Shown here: positions 6,411 to 35,929 of the stretch, piece after piece
Numbering within the stretch: the stretch's first letter is position 1
How the letters are laid out: every line of letters begins with the position of its first letter
DNA from: Fulvivirga maritima
GTDB lineage: Bacteria > Bacteroidota > Bacteroidia > Cytophagales > Cyclobacteriaceae
Direction: 5' to 3'
DNA: 64,000 bases
Assembly (NCBI RefSeq): GCF_021389955.1
Contig: NZ_CP089980.1
Location: 805,501 to 869,500, forward strand
Program-made: the position numbers and the translations under genes
Notes under the pieces: generated by a model
Seen by the model: only the letters and a program-made list of their open reading frames with translations
Told to the model about the DNA's origin: nothing
Database searches by the model: none

Positions 6411-8654
6411 CTAGAAATGTATGTTCACAGAAGCCTGCACTGTAAATGGACGGATGTATGAGCTAGTTAGTAGCTGACCATAGTATTGACTCGGGTCAGT
6501 TATAAGCTCAGAGCCATTAATAGTTCCTTTGGCTCCACGCTGATTAAGGAAGTTTACTACAGTAGCCCCTACATCTATATGATCATTAACTTTATAATCT
6601 ATACCACCAAAATTTTCCCAACGTGCTTTGAAATAAAGAACATTTGTAAGGCTAGAATACTGCCTGCTAAAATATCTGAAGCTAGCCCAGATTCTCCAAT
6701 CACCGATAGTATAGCTAGGATCAATTTCCATAAGTGTTTTCGAGATTTCTAACACATTATTGTCGCTGTAATCATAGTCATTACCAAAGGCACCGAAGGT
6801 AAACTTCTTATAAACAGGATCTTGAAGAGTGATCAGATAGTGTAGCCTAAATCCCTTAAATGGGGTTAAAACCAAATCGGTAGTCCATCCGATAGTTTGA
6901 ATATCATAGTTAACTGAGCCGTTTTGAGACTCTGAGCTATTAGCAGGATTTACAAAATTATATCTTTGCAAATAATTGTTTTTATACAGATACGTAGCTT
7001 GAGAAACTAAACTTAACCACGGAGTATTCCAAAAGACTCCTAAAGCTCCAAGGGGTGTCTTTCTTGTTTTTAAGTTAGGAACAAAAGAAGTAGAAAAGTC
7101 ATTTAATCTTCCGTTCTCTTCAGTATATAAGAAGTTTCCTATCAACCCAAAATTCTTGGTAAGGTTGTAGTTAGCATTAATTTTTCCGCCAAGTTGTAGC
7201 CAACCTTCATTGAACGAAGCAGTTTGCTCACCATTCATTACTGTTGTAGAATTTGTAGCACTTGCTAAAAAGTCTCCTTTAATATTATGATATCGAATAT
7301 GAACACCATAATTCAGACTTAGTTTATCGTTCACCTCCCATTTATCAGTGCCGAAAAACGACAATTTATTTTCCGTACCTTTATAAAATTCACCTCCAGC
7401 ATTATAACCATAGAAGCCGTATTCATCTGTATTTGGACTTATTAATTTAGAAGGTTGGTCTTCTACCGTTTGGTAGAAAAAGGAACGGTTAGAATGATAA
7501 TCATCTATATGATAATATTGCTCTAAAACACCTAACTGGAGGGTATGATTCTTTATGGTTTTATTAAGAGAGAATCTTCCCATTAATGTTTTAGTGGGTA
7601 TATTAGGAGAGTTCATTGCTAATTGAGTTGCCACGTTTCCTGTATAAACATCTCCAGTATTAGCATAAGTATAGCCTGCCGAAGCGTCTACATTCTCCGT
7701 AATGCTCAGCGGAATTTGGTATAACAGGCTCGTTTTAGCACTATGATAACGTGTAGAATATTTAAAATTCCAGCCATTATTAAGCTGGTAATTACCAAAT
7801 ACATCTATTGTATGGCTTTCTGTAGTGGCTTGATTACCATCGATATCAGCAGAATAATATTCACCCGATATTAATTCTTTGAAGCGGTATGTACCGTCAT
7901 TTACGATAAATGAACCCTTTCCAAAAGTAAAGCCATCCAGCTCTTGCGCTTCGCCTCCCTCTTGGTATCTAAATAAAGCATAATTAGTTACAGAGTAAGA
8001 GTTTGCATATTTATAAGCAGCAGTAATCTTTCCTTTATCGTCTTTGAAATACTTAGTGATACCTGCTCTGAAAATTTTTGTTTCATCAGCATTTCTCACT
8101 GATTTGAGATCATACGTATCAGGATCATAATTTAAGAATGCACCAGCAGAATATGTCCATCCATTTTTAGTTAAAGGCCCTGAGACATTTACATCTCCCT
8201 GAATCCATCCATAATGACTTCCAGAGAACTTTCCTTTAAAATGAAAATCTTTAGTGCCTGTTTGCGTATAACTATTAACAGCAAACCCCAAATCTCCCAT
8301 AGAAGTAGCCAGTTCATCCATTTTTAGCAAACCTGTCTTTTCCAAGCTTACACTAGGCCTCCAGGATCTATTGGGAAGCTCAGGCCAAAAGTAATACACA
8401 GAAGGCAAATCATTTTCTAAAATAGTGATACCTCCCACTGATGGCGGAAGCCCAATATTAACATCACGTGGCCCAGTATTACTCGATGCATTTAACATCA
8501 CATTTCTATCTCCTCCTTCTTTAGGCTTATCCTTGGTTACCTCTTGATTCAATTTTACAGAATCAGGTGCTGATAATTCATTTTCCTGCGCCAATGATCT
8601 ATGGCCAGAAAGCCACAAAAAAGCGGCAATAATTAATAGTTGAAATTTATTCAT
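6411..8654 (-). CDS. TonB-dependent outer-membrane receptor
   Basis: Outer-membrane importer of about 747 aa. The signal peptide ends near SLAQ. A short plug-like region (SSNTGPRDVNIGLPPSVGG) is followed by many alternating beta-strands and an aromatic C-terminus (SYIRPFTVQASVNIHF) typical of a barrel's last strand. The N-terminal carboxypeptidase-like domain of SusC proteins is absent and no SusD gene is adjacent, so it belongs to a non-SusC class. The ATG at 8654 is chosen over an in-frame TTG three codons upstream. It lies between the sulfatase and the nucleoside-hydrolase-like gene. Uptake of the operon's oligosaccharide or sugar product with TonB energy is the likely role; the ligand is unknown. 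Confidence 0.85.
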   Translation of the reverse strand: MNKFQLLIIAAFLWLSGHRSLAQENELSAPDSVKLNQEVTKDKPKEGGDRNVMLNASSNTGPRDVNIGLPPSVGGITILENDLPSVYYFWPELPNRSWRPSVSLEKTGLLKMDELATSMGDLGFAVNSYTQTGTKDFHFKGKFSGSHYGWIQGDVNVSGPLTKNGWTYSAGAFLNYDPDTYDLKSVRNADETKIFRAGITKYFKDDKGKITAAYKYANSYSVTNYALFRYQEGGEAQELDGFTFGKGSFIVNDGTYRFKELISGEYYSADIDGNQATTESHTIDVFGNYQLNNGWNFKYSTRYHSAKTSLLYQIPLSITENVDASAGYTYANTGDVYTGNVATQLAMNSPNIPTKTLMGRFSLNKTIKNHTLQLGVLEQYYHIDDYHSNRSFFYQTVEDQPSKLISPNTDEYGFYGYNAGGEFYKGTENKLSFFGTDKWEVNDKLSLNYGVHIRYHNIKGDFLASATNSTTVMNGEQTASFNEGWLQLGGKINANYNLTKNFGLIGNFLYTEENGRLNDFSTSFVPNLKTRKTPLGALGVFWNTPWLSLVSQATYLYKNNYLQRYNFVNPANSSESQNGSVNYDIQTIGWTTDLVLTPFKGFRLHYLITLQDPVYKKFTFGAFGNDYDYSDNNVLEISKTLMEIDPSYTIGDWRIWASFRYFSRQYSSLTNVLYFKARWENFGGIDYKVNDHIDVGATVVNFLNQRGAKGTINGSELITDPSQYYGQLLTSSYIRPFTVQASVNIHF

Positions 8655-20030: not shown

Positions 20031-22601
20031 ATGAATGCTATAAACAAAATTCAAAATTACAATAAGCAGGTAGGCTTGAAATTTCAGCTCTACAATAGCT
20101 TATTTACCAACCTTCCTTTTCACCGTGTAGAAAAAACGGGCATATTGCTATCTACCTTTCTACTACACTGTGAAGATGGATTCAAAAAAAACCAAAGCCC
20201 AGTTGAAATCATTGACTCCTTTTTTAAACAAAGCACTTCTTACGACGATCCCCAGGAGCAATTAGACCTACTTTTCAGATTTATTCAATACACTGAAAGA
20301 CAAATAGTACTTTTTGATGCTGTAGAAGAGGCCGCTTTTAGTGAAATATATGATCTAAAAGGTGTAGGTACCTTAAAGCACTTGGAATCTGAGGTGGTAC
20401 AGTCTAAAAAACAAGATGAACTGGCTAAAAAACTAAAAGACTTTTCTGTAAGACTAGTCCTTACTGCTCACCCTACGCAGTTTTACCCTAGTGAAGTTCT
20501 GGGTATAATCAATGACCTATCAAGAGCAGTAGCTGAAGATAATACAAGTGAGGTGAATAGCTTATTACAACAGCTGGGAAAAACGCCTTTCTTTAAAAAA
20601 GAAAAACCAACCCCGTATGACGAAGCCGTAAACCTTATATGGTTTTTAAGACATAGGTTCTACAAAGCGGCTGGTAAAATTATGTCTGAGTTTAAATCTC
20701 AGTTTCCTGATGAAGTAAACGAGACTAACTCACTTATACGCATGGGCTTTTGGCCTGGCGGCGATAGAGACGGAAACCCTTTTGTAAAAGTAAACACCAC
20801 TAAAAAAGTGGCTGCTGAACTAAGAGCAGGTCTTCTCAAAGCTTATTATGAAGATGTTCATATGCTAAGAAGAAGGTTGACTTTTAAAGGTGTAGATAGT
20901 GTATTGGCTAATCTGGAAGAGAAGATTTACCTTAATTTATCTGCCCCTGAAAAGCACAGTGACCTCTCTAAAGATGAAATGATCAGCACGCTGAAAGGAA
21001 TTCAAAAAACATTATGGGAGAAGCACAATGGCCTTTTCTCTGAAATGGTTGAAGATCTACTCAGAAAAGTGGAGCTTTTCGGTCTTTATTTTGCCTCTCT
21101 GGATATCCGTCAGGATAGTTCAGTACATACAGACCTCATGGCTGAAGTAGCTAAAAAGACCTCTGCTCTTCCTGATAACTACACTCAACTGTCTGACGAA
21201 GAAAAAATTGAAGCGATACTCAATATCAATGAGGTAATAGATCCTTCCATTTTTGAAGACGAGCTTTTTAGAGATACATTAGAAACTATCGCTTCTGTGA
21301 AAATGATTCAGAAGCAAAATGGAGAAGAAGGTTGCCATCGCTACATCATTAGCCACAGCACCAGTGCGCTGGATGTTATGAATGTATTTGGCTTATTTAA
21401 ACTTTCCGGCTGGGACGCCAATGACCTTAAAGTAGATATAGTGCCGCTGTTTGAGTCTGTAGAAGATTTGAATAACGCCTCTGAGGTAATGAATTCATTA
21501 TATAAGAATGAAGTGTACCGCAAGCACCTGACCAACAGAAAAGATATCCAAACCATTATGGTAGGCTTCTCTGATGGTACCAAGGATGGTGGGTATTTAA
21601 TGGCGAACTTCGGTATTTATAAAGCCAAAGAAGAGTTAACCAAAACATCTAAAGCTAATGATATTCAGGTAGTGTTCTTTGACGGACGTGGTGGACCTCC
21701 TGCCAGAGGTGGAGGTAGAACCCACCAGTTCTACGCATCACTGGGTAGCAATATTGCCAATAAAGAAATACAGCTTACTATACAAGGCCAAACCATTAGC
21801 TCTAATTTTGGTACTGTAGAAAGTGCTCGTTTTAATCTGGAGCAGCTTATGCACGCCGGCATTAGTAATGAACTGTTTTATGCCGGACAGGTTACTCAAA
21901 CTAAAGAAGGTGATGATTTACTCCTTCAGTTATCTCAGAAGAGTTATCAGGCATATGAAGACCTTAAGAATCACCCTGCCTTCTTAGAGTATCTGAATGA
22001 GGTGAGCCCACTAAAATACTACGGACAAGCTAACATAGGTAGTCGTCCTTCCAAGCGTAAGCCTGGCAAGCTCAATCTGGATGATCTGCGAGCTGTACCT
22101 TATGTAGGTTCATGGAGCCAATTGAAGCAAAACTTACCAGGATATTATGGTGTAGGTTATGCCCTTGAACAAATGGAAGCAGAAGGAAAATGGAATGAAG
22201 TATGTAAGTTATACAAAGACTCACTGTTCTTCAAAACCCTACTTGATAACTGCGAAATGGCGATGTGCAAATGTTTCTTCCCATTAACAGCTTATCTGGC
22301 AGAGCACCCTGTATATGGTGAACTTTGGACTTTAATTCACGAAGAGTTTAAAAGAACCAAGGCCTATATGCTAAAATTAACCGGTACTTCTGAGTTGATG
22401 GGAGATAAGCCTATAAACAGAGTGTCTATCCAAATGAGACAGCGCATTGAGCTACCTCTACTTACTATTCAGCAATATGCTCTTAATAGAATAAGAGAAA
22501 TACAAGCAGCTGAAGGAGAAGCTGCCAACATAGATGTATATGAAAAAATGGTTGTAAGATGCTCTTTCGGTATTATTAATGCCGGTAGAAATTCTGCTTA
22601 A
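20031..22601 (+). CDS. ppc: Phosphoenolpyruvate carboxylase
   Basis: Cytosolic enzyme adding bicarbonate to phosphoenolpyruvate to give oxaloacetate, an anaplerotic step feeding the citrate cycle. At 856 aa it is close to the usual bacterial length. Hallmark motifs are present: LTAHPTQ (catalytic His147), GFWPGGDRDGNPFV, SLDIRQDS, GFSDGTKDGGYLMANF and the glycine-rich loop FFDGRGGPPARGGGRTH. In the E. coli enzyme this last motif begins FHGRGG; here Asp (about residue 551) takes the place of His, which I believe is common in Bacteroidota. The C-terminus reads GIINAGRNSA. The gene is monocistronic, with a strong terminator 21 bp downstream. Confidence 0.95.
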   Translation: MNAINKIQNYNKQVGLKFQLYNSLFTNLPFHRVEKTGILLSTFLLHCEDGFKKNQSPVEIIDSFFKQSTSYDDPQEQLDLLFRFIQYTERQIVLFDAVEEAAFSEIYDLKGVGTLKHLESEVVQSKKQDELAKKLKDFSVRLVLTAHPTQFYPSEVLGIINDLSRAVAEDNTSEVNSLLQQLGKTPFFKKEKPTPYDEAVNLIWFLRHRFYKAAGKIMSEFKSQFPDEVNETNSLIRMGFWPGGDRDGNPFVKVNTTKKVAAELRAGLLKAYYEDVHMLRRRLTFKGVDSVLANLEEKIYLNLSAPEKHSDLSKDEMISTLKGIQKTLWEKHNGLFSEMVEDLLRKVELFGLYFASLDIRQDSSVHTDLMAEVAKKTSALPDNYTQLSDEEKIEAILNINEVIDPSIFEDELFRDTLETIASVKMIQKQNGEEGCHRYIISHSTSALDVMNVFGLFKLSGWDANDLKVDIVPLFESVEDLNNASEVMNSLYKNEVYRKHLTNRKDIQTIMVGFSDGTKDGGYLMANFGIYKAKEELTKTSKANDIQVVFFDGRGGPPARGGGRTHQFYASLGSNIANKEIQLTIQGQTISSNFGTVESARFNLEQLMHAGISNELFYAGQVTQTKEGDDLLLQLSQKSYQAYEDLKNHPAFLEYLNEVSPLKYYGQANIGSRPSKRKPGKLNLDDLRAVPYVGSWSQLKQNLPGYYGVGYALEQMEAEGKWNEVCKLYKDSLFFKTLLDNCEMAMCKCFFPLTAYLAEHPVYGELWTLIHEEFKRTKAYMLKLTGTSELMGDKPINRVSIQMRQRIELPLLTIQQYALNRIREIQAAEGEAANIDVYEKMVVRCSFGIINAGRNSA

Positions 22602-22622
22602 AGCGTAAAAAATAACATTCTA

Positions 22623-22657
22623 AAAAAGCTCAATTCTAGCATAGAATTGAGCTTTTT
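22623..22657 (+). terminator. Rho-independent terminator of ppc
   Basis: Perfect 16-bp stem AAAAAGCTCAATTCTA / TAGAATTGAGCTTTTT with loop GCA, ending in a T-run. Likely bidirectional. Confidence 0.92.
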
Positions 22658-22881
22658 CTATTCTTAGCCCTTCTTATTTCTTCTTTAACCTACAGAAAAC
22701 TCCTAAACTTTCTGATGTATGTTATATTAATATTTTATAAGTATAGTTAGATTTTTTTTACTTAAATTCTATTTAAATAAACCTAAACTCTATGCTACTA
22801 TATAAATCTACATGCGCACTTACCTATGACAGTCCACCTCATCTCAACAGTAAGACTACCTGTTCTTTTCTGTTGTGAATA

Positions 22882-23011
22882 GGGTCTGTTTCAAAAGTAA
22901 CTCTTAAGTCAGAATCAGGCACTCGAAATCTTTCGTAATAGGGAATAGGAAGATGTTTCCAGTACCTATGTGACATTCACTAACCAAGTAACCACTTTTG
23001 AGACAGTCCCC
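22882..23011. repeat. 130-bp element with terminal inverted repeats (MITE-like remnant)
   Basis: The left end GGGTCTGTTTCAAAAGTAAC and the right end, read in reverse complement as GGGGACTGTCTCAAAAGTGG, are imperfect inverted repeats. Ends of the GGG(A)CTGTCTCAAAAGT type are typical of IS termini and of the small non-coding elements derived from them. The interior has no ORF, and a clean target duplication is not evident. The remainder of the 22658-23088 gap is AT-rich with no other feature seen. Confidence 0.5.
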
Positions 23012-23091
23012 TGAAATTGGTGGCTTTATTTCTTTATTGAAAACCTACCTATGTAGCTGGTAGAGTAGAAGGCAACTGAAAAAGGAGAGTG

Positions 23092-26000
23092 ATGAGACTT
23101 GTACCAATCATAATCATACTGTGTGTAGCAGTTAATATGGCTATTGGCCAGACCTCGCAAGAGGACTTTCGTATTTATTCTAAAAAAGACGGACTATCAG
23201 GAAACAATGTAACCTCATTTGCACAAACCCCTGATGGCTACCTTTGGCTGGGTACTACTGATGGTCTCAATAGATATGATGGCTATTCTTTTAAAGTTTT
23301 TAAGCATCATGAAAATGATACCTCCTCTATCTCTGATAATTACATTACCGCTCTTTATGTAGATCATACCGGAGCTTTATGGATAGGCACTAAAACCAAA
23401 GGCCTGAATAGGTATAGACCAGCCGATGAAACCTTCGAACACTTTTTACATAATAACTACAACCCCACTTCCATTACTGATCCTTTTATCACTTGCATTA
23501 CTGAAGATGCTAACAACCAGCTCTGGATAGGCACCAGCATGGGGCTTAACCTTTATAACAAGAAAACCAACACATTCAAACGCTATTTTCATGAAACTGA
23601 AGTACTTATAGATAATAGTAGCATTCAAAAGTTAAAAGAAGAAGATACTCCAGTAAGTATTATCAGCAAACTCAAACCAATCAAGAATATCATTTTCCCT
23701 AATGTATCTCAATTTTCATTAGCTCTAGAAAAACAACTCGGCACTGCACCCACAAAAAAGTATACAGAAACAATACTGAAACATGTAAAAACAAAAATGC
23801 ATGGAGATCATATTCAAACCCTGGAGCCCGATAGAGATGGTAATATTTGGGTAGGATATATGAACAGAGGGCTCTATCATTTTAATCCTCACAGCAATTT
23901 TCTTGAAAAAATAGACTCTAAAGAAGGAGACAAAATCAATAACATCAACTCATTATTAATAGATGGAAGTCAATTATGGATAGGTGAAACCAATGGCAAT
24001 CTCAAGTTGATGGATCTGCAAACCAACAAAATCACACATGCCACTTTTGAGCAGGCTCCGGGCAGTATAGAAGCACTATATAAAGAGCAGGATGGCACCT
24101 TATGGGCAGGCACTGATATTGGTATTTTCAGCACTCGCAATAACGACACCTTTCTGCATAAAAAATTCAAAAACACCGCCTCAGCCTATTACACGGGTAA
24201 ATGTATATATCAAGACAATGAAAAAAACATATGGATAGCCCTGGATCAGCGAGGAGTTAAAATAATTCCATATCAAAAAACAGCTCCTATCACCACTCAT
24301 TTCAAAACTCAAGATTCATTGTCGTTAGAGAGTATTTCTTCCGTAATGCAGGACCATCAGCAAAACCTTTGGATTGGTTATTATTCAGGTGGTATTTCTT
24401 TATGGAACAGCCAAAAACAGGAGATCACTTATTTTGAACCACAAAAAGGCAGCGGTTTAGGCAAGGGGTCTGTTTACACTATATTCGAAGATAACAAACA
24501 TAATATATGGATAGGCACCTATGACGGCGGACTGCAGAAATATCAAGCCGAGGAAAAATCATTTGTGAAAATTCCTATTGAAGATTCCCTTGACAAGGAA
24601 GATAGATTAGATATAAGAGATATAAAACAAGATCATAAAGGCAATTTATGGATGGCTTCTCATGGTCATGGGCTCATTAAATACAATCCAAATACCGAAG
24701 AGGTAAAAGTGATTAAGGCCAATTATCTGAAATGGGAGCACAGCCTAGCTAACGACTGGCTGTACACGCTGGCTATAGACGCCAAAAATCAAATATGGAT
24801 CGGCAGTGTAGCCGGAGTAACCTTATACAATACCCAAAAGCAATCTTTTAAAACCTTTAATGATAAAAACAGCAATATATCTCACAACCAGGTCCGTAGC
24901 CTTTTTATTGATGACAAGCAACGTGTTTGGGTGGGCACCGAAGATGGCCTCAACCTAACAGACACAGCCTTTAGCGGCACTTTTAAAACCTACTCATCGT
25001 CTGCCGGACTCACAGAACCCAACATTACAGCCATTACAGAAGATCCATTCGGCACCATCTGGACAGCCACTAAAAATGGCATTTACACCTATGACAAACT
25101 CTCCGACAGGTTCGTATCAGTAAGAAACAATGACAATTTTGATCATAATGAGCTTTTTCATGGCTCATACACTATTGGCGATGATGGAAAGATTCATTTC
25201 GGAGGGAATCAGGGGCTAATCACGATTAATCCATCTCCAGAGATCAGTGACACCCCCAAAATACCACTGTTTTTCACTCAAATGATTAATTTCAATGAAG
25301 CTGATAGTAGTAAAATGCTACTATCACCAAAGCAATCTGGCTCCATAAAAATCCCTTACAATAGAAATAACTTTGTACTTCACTACGTAGGCATCAACCT
25401 TAGCAACCCAGCTCAGACGCAATACAGCTATAAATTAGAAGGTAAGGAAAAGCAATGGACCCAAGGAGGCAAAGATTTGAAAGTAATTTATCATGATTTA
25501 CCTCCAGGCAAATACACTTTCATGCTTAAAGCTACCAACAAAAATGGCCTTTGGAGGCAAGAACCCGTTACCTTAACCATAGTAGTAAGTCGTCCTTTTT
25601 GGATGGCATGGAGCACTTATCTGATTGTCCTTATCATAATTGCAGGCTCAGGATTCTACCTGAAAAAGAAAAAAATTAAAACTGTAGCTCCTCATTATGC
25701 ATTCACACCTGATTTCAACTTTCCTTTTGTTTATACGAAAAACCTACAGTTTATTGACTACTTAAAAAGTGATAAAGAGGCCTTTTCCCAAATTCGCTTC
25801 CAGTTGCTGAATTATATATCTCCCTTCAACACCAGCCTGAAGACAAAAACTCTACCTCTAATCTTAATTCTGGACAATGAAAATTTTGCTGCCTATGAAA
25901 AAAAGCTCTCCCATGATTTTGATATCGAGAAGGCCTATAGCGAAAAAGAAGCCTTTCTTATTGCCATGAATAACCAGCCTGACATCATTATTTCTAAAAC

Positions 26001-26607
26001 CATAAATGATAAAATGGATGGCATTAGACTCTGTCATAAAATTAAATCTGATCCAAGAACGGCTTTTATTCCGGTAATACTTACCACCCATAAAATATCT
26101 GAAGAAGAAATGCTTCAAAGCATGTCTGCCGGGGCTGAAGATTATCTGCCCTACTCATCAAAAATGCTTTTCTTAAAAACTAAACTTACCAACCTAATCC
26201 GGCTTAAGCGAAATATTACAGAGCATACTCTTTTCACTTACGGCTCTCAAGAGAGTCAGGAAGATTATAATAACATCCACTCTACTGACTTTCTCAGCTC
26301 AGTTCAAAAAATCATTCATGAACATATCAGTGATGATTCCTTTGGCCCCAATCATTTGGCTTCTAAACTCAATATGAGCAGGTCTCAACTTTACAAAAAA
26401 GTAAAAAAAGAATTTGGTCAATCGGTAAGCATTCTTATCAGAAATATGAGGCTGCAAAAAGCACTTGACCTACTCAAAAGCTCCCAGATGAATATAGCAG
26501 AAATAGCCTATAAAGTAGGGTTTACAGACCCGGGTTATTTTACCAGATGCTTCAAAAACTATTATGGCAAATCTCCCTCTGAGTATTTACAAGCAGAGCA
26601 AAAGTAA
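23092..26607 (+). CDS. HTCS-like transmembrane regulator lacking the kinase: propellers, Y_Y_Y, TM, pseudo-receiver, AraC HTH
   Basis: About 1171 aa. Start ATG 23092, preceded by AAAGGAG; the signal peptide ends near AIGQ. Two sensor propellers of the Reg_prop type follow (repeats such as GYLWLGTTDGLNRY, GALWIGTKTKGLNRY, HNIWIGTYDGGLQKY), interrupted around residues 170-245 by an insert without propeller motifs. A Y_Y_Y domain (YSYKLEGKEKQW, LPPGKYTFMLKATN) leads to a membrane segment near 839-861. No HisKA or ATPase domain follows. Instead a receiver-like domain starts near residue 920 (ILILDNENF), but the phosphoacceptor Asp is Lys969 (PDIIISK instead of PDIIISD) and the conserved KP Lys position is Tyr1021 (DYLPY). 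An AraC HTH ends the protein (LASKLNMSRSQLYKKV, IAEIAYKVGFTDPGYFTRCFKNYYG). It likely activates the adjacent GH5/GH48 genes on sensing oligosaccharide. Confidence 0.9.
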   Translation: MRLVPIIIILCVAVNMAIGQTSQEDFRIYSKKDGLSGNNVTSFAQTPDGYLWLGTTDGLNRYDGYSFKVFKHHENDTSSISDNYITALYVDHTGALWIGTKTKGLNRYRPADETFEHFLHNNYNPTSITDPFITCITEDANNQLWIGTSMGLNLYNKKTNTFKRYFHETEVLIDNSSIQKLKEEDTPVSIISKLKPIKNIIFPNVSQFSLALEKQLGTAPTKKYTETILKHVKTKMHGDHIQTLEPDRDGNIWVGYMNRGLYHFNPHSNFLEKIDSKEGDKINNINSLLIDGSQLWIGETNGNLKLMDLQTNKITHATFEQAPGSIEALYKEQDGTLWAGTDIGIFSTRNNDTFLHKKFKNTASAYYTGKCIYQDNEKNIWIALDQRGVKIIPYQKTAPITTHFKTQDSLSLESISSVMQDHQQNLWIGYYSGGISLWNSQKQEITYFEPQKGSGLGKGSVYTIFEDNKHNIWIGTYDGGLQKYQAEEKSFVKIPIEDSLDKEDRLDIRDIKQDHKGNLWMASHGHGLIKYNPNTEEVKVIKANYLKWEHSLANDWLYTLAIDAKNQIWIGSVAGVTLYNTQKQSFKTFNDKNSNISHNQVRSLFIDDKQRVWVGTEDGLNLTDTAFSGTFKTYSSSAGLTEPNITAITEDPFGTIWTATKNGIYTYDKLSDRFVSVRNNDNFDHNELFHGSYTIGDDGKIHFGGNQGLITINPSPEISDTPKIPLFFTQMINFNEADSSKMLLSPKQSGSIKIPYNRNNFVLHYVGINLSNPAQTQYSYKLEGKEKQWTQGGKDLKVIYHDLPPGKYTFMLKATNKNGLWRQEPVTLTIVVSRPFWMAWSTYLIVLIIIAGSGFYLKKKKIKTVAPHYAFTPDFNFPFVYTKNLQFIDYLKSDKEAFSQIRFQLLNYISPFNTSLKTKTLPLILILDNENFAAYEKKLSHDFDIEKAYSEKEAFLIAMNNQPDIIISKTINDKMDGIRLCHKIKSDPRTAFIPVILTTHKISEEEMLQSMSAGAEDYLPYSSKMLFLKTKLTNLIRLKRNITEHTLFTYGSQESQEDYNNIHSTDFLSSVQKIIHEHISDDSFGPNHLASKLNMSRSQLYKKVKKEFGQSVSILIRNMRLQKALDLLKSSQMNIAEIAYKVGFTDPGYFTRCFKNYYGKSPSEYLQAEQK

Positions 26608-26641
26608 CACCCTCCAAATCCGCCCCAAAAGGCCATTTGAG

Positions 26642-26708
26642 ACAATAGTACAAGGTGTGGACAATAGTCCTACTGTGAAACAATAGTTTAATTGATTGAT
26701 AAAATAGT
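26642..26708 (+). promoter_or_regulatory. Direct repeats ACAATAGT with 19-bp period, candidate AraC-type operator
   Basis: ACAATAGT occurs exactly at 26642-26649, 26661-26668 and 26680-26687, with start-to-start spacing of 19 bp each time. A related AAAATAGT is at 26701-26708. Phased direct repeats upstream of the regulated gene are the usual binding arrangement of AraC-family activators, and the adjacent upstream gene encodes one. The repeats lie 60-126 bp before the GH5 start. Confidence 0.6.
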
Positions 26709-26741
26709 GACTATGTTCATTGAATAAAGGAGGTAACTTCA

Positions 26742-26771
26742 ATGAACAAACCTAAAACCACGTGGATATGA
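26742..26771 (+). CDS. Nine-codon leader ORF translationally coupled to GH5
   Basis: ATG at 26742 encodes MNKPKTTWI and stops at TGA 26769-26771. It has a perfect Shine-Dalgarno sequence AAGGAGGT (26727-26734) 7 nt upstream. Its stop overlaps the GH5 start as ATGA (26768-26771). GH5 has no comparable ribosome-binding site of its own, so ribosomes probably reach it through this leader. An alternative is that the Shine-Dalgarno simply serves GH5 at long range. Confidence 0.55.
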   Translation: MNKPKTTWI

Positions 26772-29014
26772 AAAAACTCTACTACACTACTAAGAATTTA
26801 CTAAACCACCTCACCCTAACCTTTGTCTTACTCGTACTAGTTCCATCCCCAGGTCTCCCTCAAAACTTCCTCAGTACTGAGGGAGACCACCTTATAGATG
26901 CCAATGGCAATGAGGTGCGCCTCACAGGGGTAAACTGGTTTGGCTTTGAGACCAATGAACTGGTTCCTCACGGGCTGTGGGCCAGAGACCTTGAAAGCAT
27001 GCTTATTCAGATAAAAGATCAGGGATTTAACTGCATCCGTATCCCTTGGTGTAATGCCATGCTGGCGCCGGGAGCTACTGCCTCTGTCAACTCCTTTGGC
27101 ACAGATCCTTACACAGGTGTTAGCCCTATGAATGCTGAAGCAGCCACCAAATCACAGCCTATAGAAATTATGGATATCATTGTAGAATGGTGTCAGGAAA
27201 ATGATATGAAAATCATATTAGACAACCATTCTCGTGCCCCCGGCGCTTACATGGAAGAAGACCTGTGGTACACCAGTGCCGTGCCTGAAAGCCAATGGAT
27301 AGATGATTGGGTATTTATGACTAATAGATACAAAAATTATGATGCCGTAATAGGCATGGATCTTAATAATGAGCCGCATGATCGTGCTACCTGGGGCAAC
27401 TCTAACCCCGCGACTGACTGGAACAAAGCCGCAGAAAGATGCGGAAATGCGATCTTAGCTGTTAACCCCAATGTACTCATATTAGTGGAAGGCACAGAAG
27501 AGCACCTTGGCGATGTGTACTGGTGGGGCGGTAACCTTATAGGAGCGGCTCAATATCCTGTACAATTGAACGTGCCCAATAAGCTCATGTACTCACCACA
27601 TGAGTATGGCCCAACGGTATTCCCTCAAGACTGGTTTACAGATCCTGCTTTCCCTAGCAACATGCCTGGAATTTGGGATGAGCACTTCGGATACTTATAT
27701 AATCAGGACATTTCTCCACTACTTATAGGCGAATTTGGAATAAGAGATTCTGAAGGAGCGGATGAAATTTGGTTCGATTCCTTTTTGGAATACATGGGCA
27801 ATGACTATTCATGGACTTTCTGGTGTTGGAATCCTAACTCAGGAGATACAGGAGGTCTTTTAGACTACTCATGGGTAAATATAGTAGACTGGAAAATGGA
27901 GAAGCTTACCCCCTACTTAGCTCCTATGATTCCCAATGGCAATGTAGGTCCGCCTGCCGATGAACTCATTACCTCCACTAGCTCAATCAGCTTTAGTGCT
28001 TCTTCAGCAAGTTCAGAAATTTCTATCCAATCAAATATTTCATGGACAGCCAGCACCTCCACATCTTGGATATCTCTATCTCCCACCAGCGGCTCTGGAA
28101 ATGGCACATTGACAGTATCAGTAACAGAAAATACCGATTCAACTGCAAGGAGTGGAAATATTACCCTTACCGGCAACGACATAGTAAGAACTATTGAAGT
28201 ATCACAAAATGCCAGCAGCTCAGATAGCTTATTCTTAACCTTATCACCTCAGTCATTGGAGTTTGAGGCAGGTTCAGCTACAGCTTCCTTAAGCATATCA
28301 TCTAACATCAGCTGGGCTGCAAGCACTACTGTCAGCTGGATAACCATCAGCCCTGCAACAGGCAGCGGCTCAGGAAACATAGACATTTCAGTAAGCGCTA
28401 ATACCTCCTCAGAAAGAAGTGCTGAGGTCATAGTTAGCGGTGAAGGAATCTCTGCTTCGGTAACTATAAGCCAGGCAGAAGCAGATAATGAAGGCCCCTG
28501 TTCAAATGCCACAGAAATTTCCCTTCCTTTCACCCATGAAGGATCGGGCAATTTCTGCTGGATAACCTCTGACAACATAAGCTATGTCAACTCATGGAAT
28601 ATGGAGCAGGTAGAAATCAATGGCTCAGACTATACCAACACCTGGTCTAACACCATGCCCACTAGAATAAACGGCAGCTATTACATTCATTATGTAGCCA
28701 ATTTCGCTTATTCTCATTTGGAAATCAATGCTAACACCAGCAATGCCAGGTTAGCATCAGATCAGATTAAGGATACTTCTTTGAAAATCTACCCTAACCC
28801 TACTGCAGGAGCTATTACCATTCAAACGGATAAGTATGAAAGCCTGCAGGTTATCATTTATGATACTCAGGGCAGGTTAACTTACGAAGAAACCTTAAAT
28901 AACGTAGCTAATATACATACCATAGAGCCGAAGATTGCCCCCGGGTTATACACACTTCAGGTGCTCAATAACAGCGAGATTATTCACTCAGAACAAGTAA
29001 TCTTCAAAGACTAA
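26768..29014 (+). CDS. GH5 endoglucanase with two BACON domains and T9SS sorting domain
   Basis: Secreted cellulase-type enzyme, 748 aa. ATG 26768 is preferred over an in-frame GTG two codons upstream. The GH5 barrel spans about residues 35-380: LTGVNWFGFET, FNCIRIPWCNAML, KIILDNHSR, acid/base Glu202 in DLNNEPH, YSPHEYGP and nucleophile Glu322 in LIGEFG. Two BACON-like Ig domains follow (SISFSASSASSEISIQSNISWTAS and LEFEAGSATASLSISSNISWAAS). Next is an unassigned 77-residue module (578-654) shared with the GH48 neighbour, then a T9SS sorting domain (LKIYPNPTAGAITIQ). Extracellular endo-cleavage of cellulose or another beta-1,4-glucan is expected. It is the first enzyme gene after the regulator, and GH48 follows 115 bp later. 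Confidence 0.93.
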   Translation: MKKLYYTTKNLLNHLTLTFVLLVLVPSPGLPQNFLSTEGDHLIDANGNEVRLTGVNWFGFETNELVPHGLWARDLESMLIQIKDQGFNCIRIPWCNAMLAPGATASVNSFGTDPYTGVSPMNAEAATKSQPIEIMDIIVEWCQENDMKIILDNHSRAPGAYMEEDLWYTSAVPESQWIDDWVFMTNRYKNYDAVIGMDLNNEPHDRATWGNSNPATDWNKAAERCGNAILAVNPNVLILVEGTEEHLGDVYWWGGNLIGAAQYPVQLNVPNKLMYSPHEYGPTVFPQDWFTDPAFPSNMPGIWDEHFGYLYNQDISPLLIGEFGIRDSEGADEIWFDSFLEYMGNDYSWTFWCWNPNSGDTGGLLDYSWVNIVDWKMEKLTPYLAPMIPNGNVGPPADELITSTSSISFSASSASSEISIQSNISWTASTSTSWISLSPTSGSGNGTLTVSVTENTDSTARSGNITLTGNDIVRTIEVSQNASSSDSLFLTLSPQSLEFEAGSATASLSISSNISWAASTTVSWITISPATGSGSGNIDISVSANTSSERSAEVIVSGEGISASVTISQAEADNEGPCSNATEISLPFTHEGSGNFCWITSDNISYVNSWNMEQVEINGSDYTNTWSNTMPTRINGSYYIHYVANFAYSHLEINANTSNARLASDQIKDTSLKIYPNPTAGAITIQTDKYESLQVIIYDTQGRLTYEETLNNVANIHTIEPKIAPGLYTLQVLNNSEIIHSEQVIFKD
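28499..28729 (+). other. 77-residue C-terminal module shared by GH5 and GH48
   Basis: Residues 578-654 of the GH5 protein start at Cys (CSNATEISLPF) and end at HLEIN. They align without gaps to residues 843-919 of the GH48 protein, with 42 of 77 identities by hand count. Conserved are two Cys, FCW/YCW, SYxNSWN, [12 protein letters not shown], MP, and INGxYYIH. The many exposed-type aromatics and the position between catalytic/Ig domains and the sorting domain suggest a carbohydrate-binding module; that is inference. Confidence 0.6.
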
Positions 29015-29129: not shown

Positions 29130-32100
29130 ATGAAAAAACCATTAATCATCTATTCATTATGCATGGTGTGCTTTATCATGAGCATCCACTCGGCCGTGGG
29201 CCAAACCAACGAATATTTAGAGCGGTTTTTACAGCTTAGAGAAAAGGTAAACAACCCAGCCAATGGCTATTTTAGCCCTGATGGAGTTCCTTATCACTCT
29301 GTAGAGACGCTCATTGTAGAAGCACCAGACTATGGACATGAGACTGTAAGTGAAACCTACTCTTATTGGCTATGGATGGAAGCCCTTTATGGCAAAATAG
29401 AAGGCGACTGGCAACCTCTGAATGCTGCATGGCAAAATATGGATGACAACATCATCCCTACTACTGAGCTACAGCCTACAGCCGGAAACTATAACCCGAA
29501 TTCACCTGCCACTTATGCTGCAGAATTCCCTCTTCCTTCATACTACCCATCTCCTTTGCAGCCAGGCATTCCTGTAGGTCAGGATCCTATTTCTTCTGAG
29601 CTGACTGCAGCTTACGGAGATAGAGTTTATGGTATGCACTGGCTATTAGATAGTGATAACTTCTATGGCTATGGAAACCAAGGTGATGGTGTAAGCACTC
29701 CTTCTTACATTAACACCTTCCAAAGAGGTGAAGAAGAATCAGTATGGGAAACTATACCACAGCCCTCTTGGGATGAGTTTAACTTCGGAGGTCAGTACGG
29801 CTACCTGGATTTATTTACTGAGGAAGCACAAGCACCTGCTGCTCAGTGGAAATATACTAATGCTCCTGATGCTGATGCCAGAGCGGTACAAGTAATGTAT
29901 TGGGCATACCTTTGGGCTGAAGAACAAGGTTTAGACCCTGAAAGTACGCTACCTGTAGCTGAAGCCAGTAAAATGGGTGACTTTTTAAGGTTAGCTATGT
30001 TTGATAAATATTTTAAACCGATGGGGGTTCAAAGTGCTTCTGCTCCAGGGGCCACTGGTTATGAAAGCGCTCACTATCTAATGTCATGGTATTATGCATG
30101 GGGTGGCCCTACCTCTACTTCTCAAAATTGGGCTTGGAGAATTGGCTGTAGCCATAACCACTTTGGATACCAAAACCCTGTGGCAGCTTATGCTTTAAGT
30201 GAGTTTGACCCTTTAAAGCCTGTCACTCCTAATGGAGCCAGAGACTGGGGCACCAGTCTTGAGCGACAGTTAGAATTTTACCAGTGGTTACAGTCAGACG
30301 AAGGTGCCATAGCTGGTGGAGCTACTAACAGCTGGAATGGAGACTACAGTGCTTACCCTGCCGGAACTCCTACATTTTATGACATGGCATATACTGAAAG
30401 TCCTGTTTACAATGATCCGGGTAGTAACACCTGGTTTGGATGGCAAGCATGGTCTATGGAGCGTATGGCTGAGTATTATTACATAGTAGATGATCCTCGT
30501 GCTGCAGAAGTAATGGATAAATGGGTTGACTGGGTGATCTCTGCTGTTAACCTTACTGGCGGAACTTACCAACTGCCCTCTACTCTAGAGTGGACAGGAG
30601 CTCCTAACACTTGGAATGCTGCCAACCCAATGCCTAACACAGGTCTGCATGTTGCTGTATTGGATTACAGTCAGGATGTAGGTGTAGCTGGTTGCTTGGC
30701 CAGAACACTTACTTACTATGCTGCCGCTACTGAAAAATGGGGTACATTAGATACTGATGCTCAAAACCTGGCTAAAGAGCTTTTGGATAGAGTATGGGAT
30801 AACTACTGGGATGAAAACGGCATAGGTGTTTCTAACCCTGAGACCCGTGGTGATTATGATCGATTCTTCGAGCAAGAGGTGTATGTGCCTGCTGGCTGGA
30901 GTGGTGAAATGCCTAATGGCGATGACATTGAGCCTGGTATCACTTTCTTAGACATCCGCTCAGACTACAGAAACGACCCTGACTTTCCAGCTCTGGAAGC
31001 AGCCTACAATTCAGGAACTGATTACACTACCTACTACCACAGATATTGGGCTCAGGCCGATGTGGCTATTGCCAATGCTATCTATGGTATGTTCTTCGGA
31101 GAAGGCTCAGATGTCAATCATGCTCCTGATGCCGTAGCTACTGCAGATGTACTTTCAGGAGACGCACCACTACTAGTAAGTTTTGATGGTTCTGAATCAA
31201 GCGATCCTGATGGAGATCCTATTACTTTCGCTTGGGATTTTGCAGATGGAAGTGTAGCCACAGGCGCTACTGCCACTCATGAATTCACAACACCAGGATC
31301 ATATGATGTAACCCTTACAGTAACTGACAGCGCAGGACTTTCTAATGAGGCTACAATAACCATAGAAGTGGGTTCTCCTGGCAATGACGCTCCTACTGCT
31401 GCCTTTACTGCTACTCCTACTTCAGGAGAAGCCCCTTTAACCGTATCAGTAGATGCTAGTGCTTCATCAGATCCAGATTCAGATCCGCTGACTTACAGCT
31501 GGGATTTTGGAGATGGCACATCTGGAAGTGGCGTAACTGCTTCAAAAACATATTCAACATCAGGAAGTTACACCATTACCCTGACCGTTTCAGATGGTGA
31601 GTTTACTGATACGGCTACAGAAGAAATAGAAGTAGAAGAAGAACCAGATTTGGCTTGTGATTCTCCTACTCCTATAACCATGCCTTTTAGTTTTGATGGT
31701 GCAGGAGAATATTGCTGGGTAGTAAGTGGTAATGTAAGCTACATTAACTCTTGGAACACTACTTCCATCACTATTAACGGTGTGGACTATACTAATACTT
31801 GGTCTAACAGTATGCCTGCTCCCATAAATGGAAACTATTATATTCATTTTGAATCTTCAGTAGCATGGGCCCACTTTGAAATAAACGGAACCAGTTCTTC
31901 TGCCAGAATAGGAAATTCTGAAGAAAAACTTCCTATGGAAGAAATTTCATTGTTCCCTAATCCTGCCAAAGACAGATTTTATCTGAAAGGAACTAATCCT
32001 GATGCCGAAATCATGATAATGGACCTTTCTGGTAAAGTGGCTGCTGAGTTTATCAGCAAAGGTGAAAACAGACTTGAAATACCTACCAGCGGATTCCACA

Positions 32101-32168
32101 AAGGAATGTACCTGGTAAGAATAATAGATAGCGGTGAAGTAACTACATTATCCATTGTTGTAGAGTAA
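29130..32168 (+). CDS. GH48 cellobiohydrolase with PKD domains and T9SS sorting domain
   Basis: Secreted 1012-aa enzyme; the signal peptide ends near AVGQ. The ~640-residue GH48 catalytic domain begins with [20 protein letters not shown]. It carries the family motif [18 protein letters not shown], in which Glu71 corresponds to the proton donor of CelS/Cel48F, and [20 protein letters not shown] and [10 protein letters not shown]-type segments. Two PKD domains follow ([47 protein letters not shown]). Then comes the 77-residue module shared with GH5, and a T9SS sorting domain ([16 protein letters not shown]). GH48 enzymes are inverting processive cellobiohydrolases, known mainly from Firmicutes and Actinobacteria. 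Here it should act with GH5 outside the cell. No dockerin is present, so it is not cellulosomal. Confidence 0.93.
31656..31886 (+). other. 77-residue module in the GH48 protein (homologous to the GH5 module)
   Basis: Residues 843-919 ([11 protein letters not shown] to HFEIN), same length and 55% identical to the GH5 module by manual alignment. It lies between the second PKD domain and the sorting domain. It is followed, as in GH5, by a short Ser-rich linker containing SARI. Confidence 0.6.
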
Positions 32169-32266: not shown

Positions 32267-35200
32267 CTATGGCTTCACAAAGCTCTTGGTTTCTATCCTC
32301 TTTCCTTCCCTTACCTGAAGCAGATAAAATCCCTTATTTAAACTACTCAGTGATAGCTCAGCCTGAATAACTCCCTGACCACTGGCATCATATACCTCAC
32401 TAAACACCACTTGTCCGGAAGAATTCAAAATCGTAAATAAAACCTCTTGAGATTCATCGTGTATAGGATAATTCACTTGCAACAATTCACCTTGCAATGG
32501 ATTAGGGTAAACTTTCCATCCTTCTTTTTGAGATGGTGTTACACTTGCTAAACGAGCAGATGAAGAAGAACAAGAAGGCGGCGTAGCACTATCACTGAAG
32601 TAAATAGCAAAATCGCCACTTTGAGATACCATAACAAAATTATCTCCATCTATTGCCACATAATAAGCTCCATCCAAGCCAGCAAATCCTGAGTTTTGAA
32701 AAGTAATAGAAGGAGAAGTTGTAACAAATGATATGGTAGATACGGTTCTTAAATCATTCCACCAGCTGGGAGATCCATTATTGGTAGACATAGAGAACTG
32801 CCAGACAGAATTATGCTGAAGACTCCAGTTAATACCCATATTACTAACATTACTTAGGTTAGGTCCTCCAGTACCCAGCACATGAACATAATCATAAGTA
32901 TTATTTATTGAAGGCAAAGCGGCCGATAATGGCGTTCCAAACTCACAATCTCCACCGCCGGTAGTAGGTGCTGTTACTGTAATTTCTATACTATCACTAT
33001 CAGAGCCACCCTGGCCATCATCTACTGTAAGCACCACATTATACACTCCTTCTGATAAAAAAGTATGGGTTGCTAATACTCCTGAAGCCAGGCTTCCATC
33101 ACCAAAATCCCAGCTGTAAGTCAGTGGATCAGCGTCAGCATCTGAAGAGGAGGAAGCATCAAAAGTAATAGCTAATGGCAGCTCACCTGCTGTAGCTGAA
33201 GCCGAAATTACTGCCACTGGAGCAGAGTTAGAAACGGTATCGACTGAATTAACCGTGATGTCCAGGCTATAATCATCAGTGGCCTGTCCATCTGAAACTG
33301 TTAAAGTTGCAGTATAACTGCCGGGTGCCATATAAGTATGAGAAATCATCTCTCCCGAGCCACTATTGCTATCACCAAAGTCCCAAGAATAGGTCAAAGG
33401 GTCATTATCCGCATCGAAAGATGCACTACCGTCAAACTCTACCAACAAAGGATCAGAGCCAGAAACAGGATCGGCTGTAAACAAGGCTGTAGGTGCTGTA
33501 TTGACTGGCTGCCCTCCAGAAGGCTCTCCATATACAATACCACGGCCTGCTGTACTCATGTATACTCTCCCGAAAACATTTAAATCACCTTGCACAAACT
33601 CTCCATTGGCCAGACCTCCATATTCATGCTCATCATCATTTACCCGTACCCAGCTAGCTCCCTGATTAGTAGACATAAATACGCCGGTAACATCACTCAC
33701 CGTTCCAAATATGAACACCGTAGGGTAGCTGGCTCCGGGAGCTGCTTTACCCAGGCCTACCGCTTCACAATAAGAAACCGACGATATAGCAGTAAAAGAC
33801 TGCCCACTGTTAGTAGTTCTGGTAAGGCCATTCTCGGTTAAAGGCACCCACACATGTCCTTCCTGACCTAGCACCGCCCTCACCGTTTCAAAAGAGCCGG
33901 TAGACAAGGTAGCGGTTTGAGTGAAAGACACCCCTTTATCAGTACTTACATAAAAGGCTCCATCCGCTGGGTTAAACGCATAAAACTTGTTAGCATTTAC
34001 CTTATCAGCTTCAGGCCTTCCTCCCGAAAAAGATAAGCCACTTACTGTGGTCCAGGCTGAGCTTTCATATCTATACATAGATGTACTCTGCTCTGGCGCC
34101 CATAAGGTAACTGCTCCATCAGTAGAAATAGCTACTTTACCTCCGCTCAGCGAAGCCGGCGGACTGGAAATATAAGTCTGCGTACTCCAGGTAAGGCCAC
34201 CATCTTCTGACCACTGCACAGGCCCTATAGGAATAGTACTGTATTGCGTAATCACTTCTCTGGTTCTGGCAGCCTTCACCAGCACTTCACCCTCAACGGC
34301 ATAATCCAGGCCTGTAGTAGACCCCAGCGCATATAAAGAACCTGATACATTGGTTTTATGACGGCCATTGACAGGTGAAATCTCTAGATTATTGTGCACA
34401 AAACCATCATAATCAAGAATTACTGAAACTGTAGGGCCTCCTGGGATAGTTACAACATCCGAAGGAACTGTTTCTTCAATACCATGAGCCTGAAATTGCC
34501 AGGTAGACTTTCCATGCCATACAGAATCCTGAGAATTATCTCTCCACTCTACGGTAACATAAGAGTCGCTTAAATTCTCAGTAGCCCACATGCCATTACC
34601 CGCAGTAACAAAAGCCCTTTCTGCATTAAAGGGATCAATAACAGCAGCTCCATTCCAGTGAATATTACTACCTCTTATCCAGGGAATGCCATTATCATCT
34701 AGTATATCATAATCAGGAGTTGATCCTCCTTCTTGCCAATAATATCGAAACATTTCTCTCCATGACTGCCCTCCATCTTCACTTAAATAAATATTATCTC
34801 CCCATGAATCCTGATAAGTACCATTATTATTCCAATATTGAGGGCCTCTATAGCTGTTTATAGAGGTAGCCAAAATTCGATCTTCATCATTAGGGTCAAT
34901 AGAAATACCGCTGAAGGCTCCATAATGCACCTGATCTTCGCCTTCCGTCACTTTATCAAGATCAAGCATAAAATTCTCAGGAGAGATGTTCGTCCAGACT
35001 CCAGAAGTCACATTGAGCTTATAGATGGCCCCTCGATTATAGTACTCCGTAACACCATCCCACAACATGGCATGTGGCCCTCCTCCATTTCCGTAAGTAA
35101 CATAAAGTTCTTCTCCATCGCTGGAAAGCGCCATTCTCTGAGGCATAATATCTCCTTGTGTAGGCCTGTCTGCTACCAGCTGCCAGGTGCTTCCGGCATC

Positions 35201-35929
35201 ATGGCTTACATATAGATTATCATCAGGGCGAGACACACCAGCGTAAATAGTTTGGCTCACACCTGCAGAACCACTAGACGCATCAAAAGTAACGATAGCC
35301 ACTCCACTTCCATTCGGCGTAGTAGTTACTGGCAAAGAGGTTACTCGTGACCAGGAGCTACCCCGGTTAGTACTTTTCCAAAGGCCATTGAAGCGGGTGC
35401 CACAAAAAATAACATTGCTGTTATTAGGGTCTACAGCCAGCCGCTCTCCATTGGCACGCCCCATGCCATTACCATGAGCAGTAAATTGATTGGTAACATT
35501 AATCTTGTCCCAGGTATTACCATAATCATCAGACCGCAAAAACATGGTCTTGCCGTCGTTCCAATAGGATGTACCTGCCAGCATATACACCCTGCCGGGC
35601 TCATTAGGATCAATAGCGATTCCATCTACCCCTAGCAGCCCCCTTTCATCGCTAGAAACCCAATCTAGCAAGGGCACCCAGCTAGCTGAGGCTTCATCCC
35701 ACCGGTAAGCACCGCCCACATCAGTACGTGCATAAAAGACATTAGGATCATTTGGTGCTGCTATTACAGCCGAGACAAATCCACCACCGCCCATGGCGAC
35801 ATTATCCCAGGTATGCTGCCCGTAAGTAAAGGATGTGCTAATAAAACAGAGAAAAATAAAGACATAGATGTTTCTCAAACAGGTGGAGGATGCCGCACGG
35901 GCTCCTGCACCATCATAATGGTTTTCCAT
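32267..35929 (-). CDS. GH74 xyloglucanase with PKD domains and T9SS sorting domain
   Basis: Secreted 1220-aa enzyme. The signal-type segment (NIYVFIFLCFISTSFTYGQ) follows an unusual 19-residue N-terminal extension; no other Met is available as start. The catalytic part comprises two propellers with repeated D-D/N-GxTW-type turns (SDDYGNTWDKI, SHDAGSTWQLV, SEDGGQSWREM). It opens with VIAAPNDPNVFYARTDVGGAYRW, in which Asp70 matches a catalytic Asp of GH74. Two PKD domains follow ([45 protein letters not shown]). Next is a ~126-residue unassigned domain, then the sorting domain (WKVYPNPLQGELLQV). Endo-cleavage of xyloglucan outside the cell is expected. It is convergent to GH48 and has its own promoter region. 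Confidence 0.92.
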   Translation of the reverse strand: MENHYDGAGARAASSTCLRNIYVFIFLCFISTSFTYGQHTWDNVAMGGGGFVSAVIAAPNDPNVFYARTDVGGAYRWDEASASWVPLLDWVSSDERGLLGVDGIAIDPNEPGRVYMLAGTSYWNDGKTMFLRSDDYGNTWDKINVTNQFTAHGNGMGRANGERLAVDPNNSNVIFCGTRFNGLWKSTNRGSSWSRVTSLPVTTTPNGSGVAIVTFDASSGSAGVSQTIYAGVSRPDDNLYVSHDAGSTWQLVADRPTQGDIMPQRMALSSDGEELYVTYGNGGGPHAMLWDGVTEYYNRGAIYKLNVTSGVWTNISPENFMLDLDKVTEGEDQVHYGAFSGISIDPNDEDRILATSINSYRGPQYWNNNGTYQDSWGDNIYLSEDGGQSWREMFRYYWQEGGSTPDYDILDDNGIPWIRGSNIHWNGAAVIDPFNAERAFVTAGNGMWATENLSDSYVTVEWRDNSQDSVWHGKSTWQFQAHGIEETVPSDVVTIPGGPTVSVILDYDGFVHNNLEISPVNGRHKTNVSGSLYALGSTTGLDYAVEGEVLVKAARTREVITQYSTIPIGPVQWSEDGGLTWSTQTYISSPPASLSGGKVAISTDGAVTLWAPEQSTSMYRYESSAWTTVSGLSFSGGRPEADKVNANKFYAFNPADGAFYVSTDKGVSFTQTATLSTGSFETVRAVLGQEGHVWVPLTENGLTRTTNSGQSFTAISSVSYCEAVGLGKAAPGASYPTVFIFGTVSDVTGVFMSTNQGASWVRVNDDEHEYGGLANGEFVQGDLNVFGRVYMSTAGRGIVYGEPSGGQPVNTAPTALFTADPVSGSDPLLVEFDGSASFDADNDPLTYSWDFGDSNSGSGEMISHTYMAPGSYTATLTVSDGQATDDYSLDITVNSVDTVSNSAPVAVISASATAGELPLAITFDASSSSDADADPLTYSWDFGDGSLASGVLATHTFLSEGVYNVVLTVDDGQGGSDSDSIEITVTAPTTGGGDCEFGTPLSAALPSINNTYDYVHVLGTGGPNLSNVSNMGINWSLQHNSVWQFSMSTNNGSPSWWNDLRTVSTISFVTTSPSITFQNSGFAGLDGAYYVAIDGDNFVMVSQSGDFAIYFSDSATPPSCSSSSARLASVTPSQKEGWKVYPNPLQGELLQVNYPIHDESQEVLFTILNSSGQVVFSEVYDASGQGVIQAELSLSSLNKGFYLLQVREGKRIETKSFVKP
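32570..32947 (-). other. ~126-residue unassigned module in the GH74 protein
   Basis: The segment from CEFGTPLSAALPS to PPSC lies between the second PKD domain and the sorting domain. It is rich in Trp and Tyr (INWSLQHNSVWQFSMS, SPSWWNDLR, GLDGAYYVAIDGDNF). Its position and its GxYY strand recall the shorter GH5/GH48 module, but no gap-free alignment is possible. A carbohydrate-binding role is inferred from context. Confidence 0.45.

Follow-up and report, generated by a model that had tools for sequence, protein, structure and literature searches.

The stretch of DNA analysed here (the window) comprises 64,000 nucleotides of Fulvivirga maritima (assembly GCF_021389955.1, contig NZ_CP089980.1, forward strand, positions 805,501 to 869,500). 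The gene at 23092–26607 of the window encodes what is probably a membrane-spanning one-component regulator that controls cellulase genes. It derives from a hybrid two-component system (HTCS) that has lost the whole kinase and retained a receiver that cannot be phosphorylated. As read from its sequence alone, the regulator carries a sensor and a DNA-binding domain on one membrane-spanning chain without a phosphorelay. The initial annotation had proposed that propellers, a Y_Y_Y domain, a single membrane helix, a receiver and an AraC helix–turn–helix (HTH) were retained, which Pfam and hydropathy bear out. Its placement of Lys969 at the phosphoacceptor Asp and of Tyr1021 at the conserved receiver Lys is correct at both positions. 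Coordinates are summarized in Table 1.

The reading frame starts with ATG, with a GTG one codon further upstream. Residues 1–20 form the predicted signal peptide, which, like the membrane helix, was assigned from hydropathy alone; the only other hydrophobic stretch lies at about residues 836–858. The propeller region is related to the solved structures 4a2l and 3v9f. The Response_reg match is weak (residues 940–1020, 35.8 bits versus a Pfam cut-off of 30.2), and Pfam, the structure model and structure comparison all indicate a receiver fold although the acceptor Asp is absent. The matches in the VIA-align structure comparison are receivers only, and the comparison barely tests the DNA-binding part. 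There is no OmpR-type winged helix in the protein; HTH_18 takes its place.

The missing HisKA/ATPase part was likewise claimed from the start. Neither HisKA nor HATPase_c gives a Pfam match up to E = 1, and a profile of kinase domains taken from nine related HTCSs detects no remnant in the six frames of 22602–26761 (best score −1.0 bits), which rules out a remnant inside the linker; on the dead kinase of a more distant orthologue (G013, described below) the same profile scores 131.9 bits. A kinase displaced elsewhere was not found either: the nearest kinases (∼40%) belong to other HTCSs, and no kinase gene adjoins the regulator in this genome (G000) or in the two genomes with close orthologues (G006 and G004). 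Together with the loss common to these three orthologues, the profile searches uphold the absence of a phosphorelay from the protein. The same results bear on the idea that the regulator pairs, as a heterodimer, with a complete HTCS present in its own cell, which would supply the kinase signal. The genome does hold complete propeller HTCSs, but a receiver unable to accept phosphate and the lack of a dedicated kinase, whether adjoining or displaced, make such a partnership highly improbable.

The gene itself is intact. A frameshift, which the initial annotation had named as a possible refutation, or a misassembly is ruled out as far as sequence allows because three genomes of marine Fulvivirga, this one and two others, share the same architecture without stops. 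The ratio of nonsynonymous to synonymous substitution rates (Ka/Ks) is 0.06 for the propellers and 0.09 for the Y_Y_Y domain, figures that indicate strong purifying selection on the sensor but are rough because synonymous sites are near saturation. A decaying pseudogene or assembly artefact, which the lack of a whole domain might suggest, is contradicted by the open frame in three species, the low Ka/Ks and the same neighbouring genes, and is given next to no weight.

Orthologues were sought in 15 Fulvivirga genomes and 38 relatives. Full-length kinase-less orthologues occur in G006 (Fulvivirga sediminis, 82%) and G004 (57%), and the sensor keeps its full length in all three species. The acceptor and conserved-Lys positions are occupied by Lys/Tyr in G006 and Arg/Thr in G004, so that conservation of Lys969 holds for the former and fails for the latter. 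The orthologue in G013 (L067 8367–12278; sensor identity 41%) retains a kinase-like region and no receiver. Its kinase is dead: Lys stands in place of the phosphoacceptor His, and the ATP-site motifs are lost. HisKA scores 17.4 bits, under the cut-off of 26.9, and HATPase_c is not reported. A six-frame search found no receiver and rules out a remnant in another frame. The model of this protein (mean predicted local distance difference test, pLDDT, of 71) contains DHp-like helices, an α/β kinase-like part and an AraC domain with a disordered join and no receiver. Judged by its predicted domains, its phosphorelay was taken apart in the reverse manner: the dead kinase is kept and the receiver is lost.

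Five further orthologues (G008, G014, G001, G012 and G016; 33–36%) are complete, with HisKA, HATPase_c, receiver and AraC domains. In the sensor tree, the three kinase-less proteins group with G013 (support 100/100) and then join G008, G014 and G001 (98/98); this branching order recurs, less well supported (82/85), in the tree of the DNA-binding part. Descent of the regulator from a true HTCS, as originally suggested, is well supported by this nesting among complete HTCSs. Orthologues with an intact Asp and kinase, which had been named as evidence against the proposal, do exist one step out (G008, G014 and G001) and are absent among the three close orthologues; they therefore show the ancestral state and leave the claim for the close orthologues unrefuted. 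The simplest reading of the trees would be one inactivation before the G013 split followed by two different deletions, although there may have been two separate losses. Among the matches listed for the junction (residues 745–1045), those spanning it occur only in G000, G006 and G004, both in 390 genomes of the order (six candidates scored in each) and in 196 genomes of the family (12 scored in each); distant kinase-less proteins could be missed. Two short-looking candidates, L055 (Bacteroidales) and L057, are propeller kinases without an AraC domain.

The regulator gene is followed by GH5 and GH48 genes in G000, G006 and G004, by GH9 and GH5 in G013, by GH9 in G008, G014 and G001, by GH9 and GH48 after a 2-kb gap in G012 and by no cellulase in G016. 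Between regulator and cellulase, seven genomes carry a direct repeat of ACAATAGT, or a one-mismatch form of it, with a period of ∼19–20 bp: in G008, G014 and G001 it appears as ACAATAGT and ACAATAAT 20 bp apart, and in G013 as ACAATATT and ACAATAAT 19 bp apart. Such a pair arises in 1–2 of 5000 shuffles of each gap. Among the three kinase-less species all 32 repeat columns are identical (32/32), compared with 59/122 of the remaining gap columns. In the whole 6.39-Mb genome a single place has exact ACAATAGT pairs, and the reversed control gives none; a looser pattern applied to 16 genomes places 10/20 of its matches inside regulator–cellulase gaps. No copy of ACAATAGT within one mismatch was found upstream of the regulator or between GH5 and GH48. 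From its position and co-conservation, the repeat is a probable operator bound by the regulator, with four copies here and two clear ones beside the kinase-bearing relatives. The phosphorelay has been lost, while the probable target and operator were kept. Separately, three ACAATAGT repeats 20–21 bp apart were seen at L127 8827–8875 (G009:C96), upstream of a carbonic anhydrase gene (7653–8417, minus strand); a close orthologue of the regulator was not found in that genome.

With the sensor under selection and both the kinase and the acceptor gone, the likeliest mechanism suggested by the sequences is that sensor conformation governs how the AraC domains pair on the repeats. A glucan-derived oligosaccharide would bind the propeller/Y_Y_Y sensor, the altered dimer geometry would be transmitted through the membrane helix, and the two AraC domains would be brought into register on the ACAATAGT repeats, raising GH5 and GH48 transcription. 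The pseudo-receiver would serve as a spacer, perhaps as a dimerization module, and not as a phosphorylation switch, and the four repeats may compensate for the lost phospho-activation. We infer both the direct signalling from ligand to HTH and the preference for activation over repression. DNA binding by a membrane-tethered protein is feasible, since HTCSs that are intact and still in the membrane do so in living cells, as shown in the available part of PMC3404733.

The hold of the receiver on the DNA-binding domain has probably loosened as well. The accessible sections of PMC11253607 describe an S/CHIP-DK contact through which the HTCS receiver keeps the DNA-binding domain inactive, and mutants of this latch that bind DNA unphosphorylated. 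In a 57-row alignment (some genes appear twice), only the three kinase-less orthologues have Phe in place of the latch His, and all three do. Their latch Asp is Ser, Thr or Glu (Glu is seen in other rows too), and the recognition-helix Lys is retained. The inhibitory contact is probably weakened, given the replacement of the S/CHIP His by Phe in all three. Combined with the loss of the kinase, the flexible linker in the model and the report that HTCS parts freed of the latch bind DNA without phosphorylation (PMC11253607, same sections), this could mean that the AraC domain is always on, the sensor has no control and cellulase expression is constitutive. Strong purifying selection on propellers and a Y_Y_Y domain that remain full length in three species argues against such uncoupling, which we consider unlikely. 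Unlatched binding might also repress, blocking the GH5 promoter until a ligand releases it; the last repeat may lie near a possible promoter, and repression of its locus is reported for BT2391, an HTCS whose latch departs from the consensus (PMC11253607, as far as the accessible text goes). Since the repeat array and its position are inherited from kinase-bearing relatives, which by analogy with known HTCSs would be activators, repression is very unlikely.

Several observations, beyond the roughness of the Ka/Ks values, weigh against a ligand-controlled cellulase activator. Between G000 and G004 the membrane helix is only 18% and the linker 22% conserved, and the linker is disordered in the structure model, which therefore predicts no rigid signal-carrying helix. 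Outside the gaps, the looser repeat pattern has ten matches compared with seven in the reversed control, which is background, and the pattern did not find the repeat beside the orthologues in G012 and G016 (the G016 stretch contains Ns). According to the available part of PMC10113389, no cellulose degradation was seen in three cultured Fulvivirga strains that carry GH5, GH9 and GH48 genes, and the inducer is therefore uncertain.

The initial annotation had found this arrangement unfamiliar. The search for the same architecture that it called for found it in G006 and G004 and also in an independent family of Prevotella, and the arrangement is therefore not unique. Proteins at L058 1159–4935, L059 10001–13783 and L060 10001–13780 (Prevotella/Prevotellaceae) have Reg_prop, Y_Y_Y, receiver and AraC domains; HATPase_c was not found in them and HisKA scores at most 10.8 bits. 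Their genes lie between an SIS-CBS sugar-phosphate isomerase gene on one side and a PLD-family synthase gene on the other. The kinase-less cytoplasmic part has matches in 59/150 genomes of the genus, and a Prevotella query against 395 phylum-wide genomes (three candidates each, E ≤ 1e-30) matched in one. A DHp-like helical stretch without the His is present. Lys is the acceptor residue in each of the 25 rows read, which represent 23 distinct genes; in the same 25/25 the receiver's own Lys is retained and the kinase His position is Asp or Glu. A shared origin of the Fulvivirga and Prevotella forms was rejected (approximately unbiased test, p-AU 2.65e-10). According to the available part of PMC4395418, ∼4% of receivers lack the acceptor Asp, and the three basic residues (Arg, Lys and His) jointly account for 4% of the substitutions; that one architecture should have acquired a basic acceptor twice is notable for that reason. 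We see an even balance of probability for the broader proposal that HTCSs repeatedly become transmembrane one-component AraC regulators without a kinase, and that Fulvivirga and Prevotella took this route independently, both times with a basic acceptor (Lys/Arg). Under this proposal the Fulvivirga series would run from a complete HTCS to either a dead kinase without a receiver or a dead receiver without a kinase, on the same operator type, with two repeats becoming four as phosphorylation was lost.

Table 1. Features of the regulator locus in window coordinates.
Feature	Coordinates	Strand	Basis or remark
Kinase-less HTCS-derived regulator	23092..26607 (stop codon within range)	+	Intact open reading frame, 1171 aa
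Periplasmic β-propeller region, ∼residues 21–760	23152..25371	+	Pfam Reg_prop, 9 stretches
Y_Y_Y domain, residues 771–832	25402..25587	+	Pfam
Single membrane helix, about residues 839–858	25606..25665	+	Hydropathy
Linker, ∼63 residues, at the HisKA/HATPase_c place of HTCSs	25666..25854	+	Mostly pLDDT <50, poorly conserved
Pseudo-receiver, ∼residues 922–1045	25855..26226	+	Pfam, structure model, structure comparison
Lys969 codon, phosphoacceptor Asp position	25996..25998	+	Receiver alignment
Tyr1021 codon, conserved receiver Lys position	26152..26154	+	Receiver alignment
AraC-type HTH (HTH_18), residues 1089–1167	26356..26592	+	Pfam
Probable operator: ACAATAGT at 26642, 26661 and 26680; AAAATAGT at 26701	26642..26708	+	Pattern search, alignment
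Probable target: GH5 cellulase, CBM64, type IX secretion tail	26762..29014	+	Pfam
Probable target: GH48 cellulase, PKD, CBM64, type IX secretion tail	29130..32168	+	Pfam

Two neighbouring genes were also noted. A divergent phosphoenolpyruvate carboxylase (20031–22601; 497 bits versus an NCBIfam cut-off of 815) adjoins the regulator in G000, G006 and G004. On the minus strand, 32267–35929 encodes a large secreted protein in which repeats of the Sortilin/BNR type occur together with PKD domains and a type IX secretion tail. Its C-terminal 900 aa are 79% identical to a G006 protein; it is possibly a glycoside hydrolase.

The regulator has the periplasmic sensor, membrane helix and AraC-type DNA-binding domain of an HTCS and lacks HisKA/HATPase_c and the acceptor Asp. 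Because two defining features were looked for and are absent, classing it as an HTCS would be wrong; annotation by the word 'two-component' can mislead. Bacteroidota sense glycans mainly through HTCSs, in which the conformational route from sensor to DNA-binding domain is not easily told apart from phosphotransfer. In the present regulator, phosphotransfer has been removed by nature, the sensor, DNA-binding domain, operator and target have been kept, and close relatives exist at each stage. The value of the regulator lies in this series of relatives, a natural set for testing the mechanical share of HTCS signalling. A literature search, judged largely without full texts, recognized no account of a kinase-less HTCS.

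Compared with the Bacteroidota HTCSs BT4663, BT1754 and BT4124, the regulator shares the membrane helix, receiver fold, AraC HTH and glycan-gene neighbourhood, and its Reg_prop/Y_Y_Y sensor is of the BT4663 type, but it has no HisKA, HATPase_c, acceptor Asp or conserved receiver Lys, and its latch His is changed to Phe. Propeller-Y_Y_Y proteins ending in LuxR HTHs have the same sensor with neither kinase nor receiver; the regulator differs in its AraC HTH and in the presence of a receiver. With ToxR and CadC it shares a periplasmic sensor, one membrane helix and a cytoplasmic DNA-binding domain on one chain. These proteins, however, have a winged-helix domain and the inverse topology, whereas the sensor here is N-terminal and a pseudo-receiver lies between it and an AraC domain. 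RitR, ChxR and HP1043, which are soluble regulators, have aspartate-less receivers, and the fold without a phosphoacceptor is common to them and to the regulator, which has also lost the β5 Lys and is membrane-tethered. In the part of PMC4395418 that treats such receivers, basic residues account for 4% of substitutions, whereas all of the kinase-less proteins here have Lys or Arg. A parallel in mechanism is the BT4236-type HTCS, which has Gln at the kinase His and for which, in the accessible sections of PMC11253607, a phosphorylation-independent mechanism is proposed and a non-consensus latch is noted; BT4236 is described there with only the His replaced, whereas the regulator here lacks the whole kinase and the receiver Asp.
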